Of a stretch of 64,000 nt of DNA, positions 585 through 5,302 are shown piece after piece. A model generated the notes under the pieces. It was not told the origin of the DNA and did not search any database. It saw only the letters and a list, made by a program, of their open reading frames with translations. The position numbers and the translations under genes are program-made. Positions within the stretch are counted from its first letter, which is position 1; each line of letters begins with the position of its first letter. This DNA comes from Thermosipho ferrireducens (GTDB taxonomy: Bacteria; Thermotogota; Thermotogae; Thermotogales; Fervidobacteriaceae): assembly GCF_017358165.1 (NCBI RefSeq), contig NZ_CP071446.1:1736001-1800000 (forward strand), in the 5' to 3' direction.

Positions 585-710
585 CTATCTGATCACCCAA
601 AAATCATTCATGGATTCCTGAGAACTTTTCAAAACCTCTAAAACAACTTTTACTTTTCCTGCCTTCAACATCTTTTTTATAACACTCAACACAAATCTTA
701 TCCCTAACAT
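585..710 (-). CDS. Small protein of 41 residues, unknown function
   Basis: A short frame starting MLGIRFVLSVIKK and ending NDFWVIR. It is supported by context rather than homology: a near-ideal Shine-Dalgarno (GGGGAGGTG) sits 5-7 bases before the ATG, and a consensus-like promoter (TTGACA, 18-base spacer, TATAAT) lies 34 bases upstream of that. The peptide is basic in its first half (several Lys, one Arg) with alternating Leu/Val, so it could form an amphipathic helix. The GNAT gene follows 40 bases downstream on the same strand, suggesting a two-gene transcript. It could be a true small protein or a leader peptide. I do not recognise a family. Confidence 0.5.
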   Translation of the reverse strand: MLGIRFVLSVIKKMLKAGKVKVVLEVLKSSQESMNDFWVIR

Positions 711-743
711 GATAACACCTCCCCGTTAACTGAAACCAAAATT

Positions 744-773
744 ATTATATCATATACCAAATATTTTTGTCAA
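744..773 (-). promoter_or_regulatory. Sigma-70 type promoter for the small gene and GNAT gene
   Basis: On the minus strand TTGACA (768-773) and TATAAT (744-749) are separated by 18 bases, a full match to both consensus hexamers. The first start codon is at 710. Confidence 0.75.
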
Positions 774-819
774 TAACTAAAAATATTTTTTAGATAGTAA
801 TATTTTTTTGGATGAGGAA

Positions 820-850
820 ATAAAAAAAGTCGCGGCATCTGCCGCGACTT
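820..850 (-). terminator. Rho-independent terminator after the 34-residue gene
   Basis: A perfect 10-base GC-rich stem (827-850) with a 4-base loop, followed on the minus strand by seven T residues. It ends the transcript of the small gene at 876-980. A segment inside that gene (919-933) is complementary to one arm of this hairpin; see findings. Confidence 0.8.
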
Positions 851-875
851 CACATATATTCAAGGTCTTTCTATC

Positions 876-980
876 TTAACTGCTTAAATAGTAATTATTA
901 TACTCTTCTCTTATTAACCGCGGAAAGATGCCGTATAGTTTATATTTAATTTCCTTTATTATCTTTGTATCTACTGTCAT
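876..980 (-). CDS. Small protein or leader peptide of 34 residues
   Basis: The frame starts MTVDTKIIKEIKYK, is preceded by a strong ribosome binding site (AAGGAGGGG) and has its own promoter (1054-1082) and terminator (820-850), so it looks like a self-contained transcription unit of about 240 bases. The C-terminal third is rich in Tyr and Asn (EEYNNYYLSS). Codons 16-21 overlap a sequence able to pair with the downstream terminator arm, which would fit a leader peptide. No family recognised; it may instead be a small RNA with a fortuitous frame. Confidence 0.5.
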   Translation of the reverse strand: MTVDTKIIKEIKYKLYGIFPRLIREEYNNYYLSS

Positions 981-1125: not shown

Positions 1126-1157
1126 TAAAAAAGGCCACATTTTGTGTGGCCTTTTTA
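1126..1157 (-). terminator. Terminator of the DUF302 gene
   Basis: A 12-base stem AAAAAGGCCACA/TGTGGCCTTTTT with a short T-rich loop; it ends in T runs on both strands and lies just downstream of the DUF302 gene. Confidence 0.75.
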
Positions 1158-5010: not shown

Positions 5011-5245
5011 ATGGCGAGGATTAGCAAGGCTTGTCCTGAGCACGAAATGCGAAGGAGCTTACGAGAGTTAGCGAGAGTTGGCGAGGTTGGCAAAAAGACA
5101 AGATTCTTCACATTCGTTCGGAATGACAATAAGGAGAAGATCCTTCGTCACTTCGTTCCTCAGGATGACGTTCCTTTCATTCAGGATGACAAGAAAGAAA
5201 ATGTCATTCCGAGGAGCAGATGCGACGAGGAATCTTATGATTAGC
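5011..5245. repeat. Dispersed hairpin repeat cluster, site 1
   Basis: A noncoding stretch between the chemoreceptor and the epimerase made of about 30-base units, each with short inverted ends: ATTCT/GGAAT (5103-5124), ATCCT/AGGAT (5140-5166) and ATTCC/GGAAT (5206-5233), introduced by a tract of irregular GCGAG/GCAAG steps. The same units occur at 13.1-13.46, 20.2-20.44 and 43.5-43.8 kb, in both orientations. The open frame across it is a by-product of the repeat. Confidence 0.85.
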
Positions 5246-5302
5246 GAGGGTTAACGAGTTTAGTAAAAAATAACAGATACGTTCAAAAATTCTGCCTCAA
5301 AA

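Follow-up and report, generated by a model that had tools for sequence, protein, structure and literature searches.

A probable intrinsic terminator with a mutually exclusive upstream pairing, and a hairpin-promoter cassette present twice in the genome of Thermosipho ferrireducens

On the minus strand of the window, the 64,000-nucleotide stretch of Thermosipho ferrireducens DNA analysed here, a short reading frame is followed by a terminator-like hairpin, and a segment inside the frame is able to pair with that hairpin. The question raised by this locus is whether the pairing makes the hairpin an attenuator of the genes that lie beyond it, as was proposed from a sequence-only reading. The hairpin (GAAGTCGCGGCAGATGCCGCGACTTT, 826-851) consists of 11 pairs, seven of them GC, with a 4-nt loop and a T run (tail TTTTATTTCC), and thus has the GC-rich stem, the short loop and the T run on the transcribed strand of an intrinsic terminator. 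The frame of 34 codons (MTVDTKIIKEIKYKLYGIFPRLIREEYNNYYLSS, 876-980, minus strand) has a strong Shine-Dalgarno sequence (AAAGGAGGGG), and a promoter-like site for its short transcript lies at 1054-1082 on the same strand (TTGACA-17-GAGAAT with TG before the second hexamer, 10 of 12 consensus positions). The hairpin, the promoter-like site and the strong ribosome site described earlier are therefore all present; all of the promoters reported here are consensus matches with predicted starts. The upstream DUF302 gene, named by a family match, is closed by a terminator-like site of its own at 1128-1156 (minus strand, consensus scan), so the 34-codon unit is freestanding. A scan of genome contigs with the DUF302 protein found one distant relative (in a Bacteroidales genome), which was unusable for comparison.

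On the minus-strand letters the proposed pairing of 919-933 with the terminator was confirmed as two helices of 8 and 5 bp separated by a small internal loop. The longer helix joins 933-926 (CGGCATCT) to 840-833 (AGATGCCG), the shorter joins 923-919 (CCGCG) to 846-842 (CGCGG), and the internal loop between them is 2 x 1 (925-924 against 841). The full segment CGGCATCTTTCCGCG (933-919), which overlaps the codons GGC ATC TTT CCG CGG, is complementary to CGCGGCAGATGCCG (846-833). Its partner had been described as one arm of the terminator, and this needs correction; within the partner, 846-842 belong to the inner 5' arm, 840-837 form the loop of the hairpin, and 836-833 are the four bases with which the 3' arm begins. 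Because the partner spans both arms and the loop of the terminator (851-826), the two structures share bases and exclude each other, as the sequence-only reading had it.

Folding was performed on a transcript whose start was put at 1047, estimated from the -10 hexamer, at 37, 65 and 70 C, the two higher temperatures being an assumption from the likely group (Thermotogales). At 37 C the alternative fold had an energy of -31.3 kcal/mol against -34.0 for the terminator, which is 2.7 worse, and at 65 C the corresponding values were -9.36 and -11.14, which is 1.8 worse. With the RNA end at 835-831 the alternative helix had a probability of more than 0.97 at all three temperatures. The terminator predominates once the RNA end reaches 828, and with the end at 822 its probability was 0.999 at 37 C, 0.950 at 65 C and 0.934 at 70 C. 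The alternative helix is thus formed earlier in transcription and then loses to the completed terminator. An alternative helix that never competes had been named as grounds for giving up the proposal; since the energies are nearly equal and the alternative comes first, energy does not dispose of the pairing.

How unusual such a pairing is was judged against 73 terminators, collected by one rule from 464 kb (the window and 20 further stretches), leaving out candidates less than 260 nt from the start of a stretch or weaker than -8 kcal/mol. The duplex energy with the 197 nt that precede it placed the present terminator third of 73 (-23.9, tied with the one listed second). Dinucleotide shuffles of those 197 nt matched the pairing in one case out of 1000, and on a second score in none of 200; across the set, the same shuffle test gave p <=0.01 for four terminators and <=0.05 for nine. 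When the upstream regions of the other 72 terminators were swapped onto this stem, none reached its energy, and the present case was among four of the 73 at <=0.02 in this swap test. In a genomic sample of 34% G+C, an equal duplex energy with this stem was found for 32 of 4688 windows, two of the 32 containing the terminator itself. With stems trimmed to their core, the energy gained in the full fold placed fourth of 73 at 37 C and second at 65 C, and the cost of abandoning the terminator ninth and fourth, respectively. Other terminators in the set have equal or better alternative pairings. The pairing is therefore moderately beyond chance, an outlier that is not unique, and with the look-elsewhere effect it may be due to chance. 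Rare, GC-rich codons also run through the segment 919-933; on a score examined post hoc, a fraction of about 2e-5 was as low among 101456 five-codon windows taken from long frames. This could reflect bases kept for pairing or a spurious reading frame.

The genes beyond the hairpin form a unit with its own promoter, as had been noted earlier. This promoter (773-744, minus strand; TTGACA-18-TATAAT with TG) agrees with the consensus in all 12 positions and lies past the terminator, and it is followed on the same strand by a 41-codon gene (MLGIRFVLSVIKKMLKAGKVKVVLEVLKSSQESMNDFWVIR, 585-710), which has a paralogue elsewhere in the genome, and by a GNAT acetyltransferase gene (3-569; PF13302, E 3.1e-25). 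Two AAAATATTT boxes with a spacing of 22 bp occur at 757-789 on the minus strand, at 789-781 and at 767-759, where the second overlaps the end of the -35 region; they may be an operator or a UP element. The 41-amino-acid protein gave no match in a plasmid search, in Pfam or in NCBIfam, and within the family only weak matches were seen, in four of 20 genomes at E <= 1 with its own genome counted. We also considered a leader peptide of the GNAT gene that would act by masking the ribosome site of that gene, an idea that was rejected when the fold at 65 C contained no such structure.

Taken as a whole, the locus is probably an ordinary one, in which 826-851 would be an intrinsic (Rho-independent) terminator and insulator, and the pairing would have no regulatory role. 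The terminator would end a transcript of about 225 nt carrying the orphan 34-codon frame and would keep RNA polymerase out of the next unit, that of the 41-codon and GNAT genes, which would start from its own strong promoter at 773-744. The pairing at 919-933 would most likely be a coincidence or a relic of hairpin-like sequence. Termination in the cell, insulation and a lack of regulation appear to us the most likely state of affairs. Counting against this are a rank within the top few of the 73 terminators, the 999 of 1000 shuffles that were beaten, the early alternative helix, the gap of about 2-3 kcal/mol and the rare GC-rich codon run; the two copies of the cassette described below are also too small a number to gauge constraint. 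The hairpin resembles an intrinsic terminator between two units in its 11-bp GC-rich stem, its 4-nt loop and its T run, with a promoter directly after it; it differs in that a segment of the upstream frame is able to pair with the stem, and in that its core is common to a second downstream cassette.

That second cassette was found through the hairpin core, GCGGCA..TGCCGC, which the 1.98 Mb genome contains twice, and its reversed control not at all. Each of the two sites immediately precedes a near-identical promoter and a paralogous 41-codon gene. The second cassette, at about G000:C1:1468620-1468893 of the same genome (L002 1382-1660, minus strand), was aligned with window 585-851 (minus strand); the two share the hairpin core, an A/T box upstream of the -35 hexamer, the near-identical promoter and the ribosome site, and both copies carry A/T boxes 22 bp apart. 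The 14 letters of the hairpin core are identical at every position, the spacer between hairpin and promoter has diverged, and after each hairpin comes a T run on the upstream gene's strand. The paralogue (G000:C1:1468623-1468742) is 41% identical by residue and 59% by base, and the C-termini, NDFWVIR and NDLWIIR, have the common end ND[FL]W[VI]IR; across 45 genomes of the order, the DNA pattern of this C-terminus was found at two sites, both in its own genome. The surroundings of the second cassette differ, the frame upstream encoding an unrelated 122-aa protein and the gene downstream a DUF5700 putative zinc peptidase, as against GNAT in the window. Upstream of its hairpin the best pairing is weak and scattered (-15.9), with no comparable segment, so the unit of terminator and promoter persists without the supposed antiterminator. 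Since the cassette is present twice, the hairpin would belong with the promoter as an upstream insulator. Separately, interspersed repeats CATTCCGAGGAGCGCA...GACGAGGAATCTTAT, with RSxCDEESY-like translations, were seen at L002 80-290 and 2480-2700 and at window 5011-5254.

TTGACAAAAATATTTGG, a sequence that the two cassette promoters share, was also found exactly at the promoters of DUF2089 genes in two related genomes and, with one mismatch, in two further genomes upstream of genes that we take to encode MFS exporter-like proteins. The search returned 11 matches in 20 genomes, one of them at a contig end, and four that by eye lay inside genes were dropped. At the seven retained sites a second A/T box lies 21-22 bp upstream, and none of 5000 single-base shuffles fit as well. 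TTGACAAAAATATTTGG with tandem A/T boxes is recorded at window 757-789 (minus strand) and at L056, L057, L084, L086, L088, L089 and L090, at the cassettes here and, in related genera, at the DUF2089 genes and the exporter-like genes. The promoter of the DUF2089 gene in the genome studied here is similar, but not identical, to the cassette promoters. PMC11237479 resolves DUF2089 into three parts, zinc ribbon, helix-turn-helix and SHOCT-like domain, and puts it in envelope-stress gene contexts. The shared sequence and boxes could possibly mark an envelope-stress regulon; the boxes would also be accounted for by phased A/T tracts that serve the promoters as UP elements.

Among the other explanations for the pairing, attenuation through translation of the 34-codon leader survives best, and we consider it unlikely. 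According to this explanation, 919-933 when free of ribosomes would form the early helix, delay the terminator and allow read-through, and ribosomes crossing the segment would free the terminator. It draws on the strong ribosome binding site of the leader, on the rare codons that run through the segment, on a pairing within the top few of the 73 terminators and on two mutually exclusive structures, terminator and antiterminator, that are close in energy, with the alternative dominant while the RNA ends at 835-831; at equilibrium, however, the terminator is favoured, and a search of 40 relatives gave no homologue of the leader frame. In trp and his attenuators, a short frame with a strong ribosome site is combined with alternative helices and a terminator. 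In contrast to these, about 40 nt here separate the segment 933-919 from the stop codon (878-876) beyond it, the target has its own promoter and there is no biosynthetic target. Given the size of the ribosome footprint, a ribosome at the stop codon leaves 919-933 uncovered, as does one stalled at the Tyr/Asn codons (902-888), and a logic of the trp type would have no off state. Only ribosomes in mid-frame cover the segment, which leaves as the sole workable logic that translation favours termination.

Riboswitch expression platforms likewise use an early alternative helix that is displaced by the terminator during transcription; the same displacement is seen here, but no aptamer-like structure was noticed in the region, and an Rfam search of it gave no family at the gathering threshold, so that a riboswitch or other known RNA was rejected. 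The proposal that translation or a ligand decides between the two forms is thus not borne out, since a ribosome at the stop codon misses the segment, no Rfam family reaches threshold and the second cassette has no comparable segment. The 41-residue gene would also fall away as a target of attenuation; its expression would not depend on read-through, the predicted 12/12 promoter at 773-744 intervening past the terminator. The pairing and the codon run are all that was found in favour of such a switch. In a broader version, to which we give slightly less credence again, a stress cassette would have been duplicated and one copy would have gained the 34-codon frame as a translation-gated attenuator, its early helix delaying the terminator; the 41-codon gene would then be a small protein or leader peptide controlled like DUF2089 genes and exporter genes in related genera. 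The available text of PMC11237479, PMC7332713, PMC10707071 and PMC3636130 makes no mention of the element, and we make no claim of priority.

It is still less probable that the transcript from 1047 to 820 serves as a small RNA or encodes a functional 34-residue peptide, with the pairing folding or protecting the finished RNA instead of controlling termination. Such a role would suit a unit that stands by itself between two terminators and has a promoter-like site of its own and a strong ribosome binding site, but Rfam gave no match for the region, Pfam and NCBIfam gave none for the frame, and its codon preference is only weakly in frame. The protein search found no homologue of the frame in the 40 relatives, none of them another species of its genus, and in the search of 41 genomes the matches outside its own genome were at chance level (seven genomes, E 0.06-0.3). 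That the GC-rich palindrome (16 bp, CGCGGCA-NN-TGCCGCG) serves the cassette as a site for protein binding, and not as a terminator, we regard as very improbable, for although its core is the same in both cassettes despite the diverged spacer and its inner 12 letters are confined to the two cassettes genome-wide, both copies carry the T run that marks a terminator on the upstream gene's strand, and they stand at unequal distances from the -35 hexamer (53 and 63 nt).

If the attenuator were real, this AT-rich genome would contain an unclassified switch gated by translation. Convincing alternative pairings adjoin several of the 73 terminators in the 464-kb sample, and they should be labelled attenuators only with conservation or expression data. 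The duplicated cassette of hairpin, promoter and 41-codon gene is a more useful lead than the attenuator idea.
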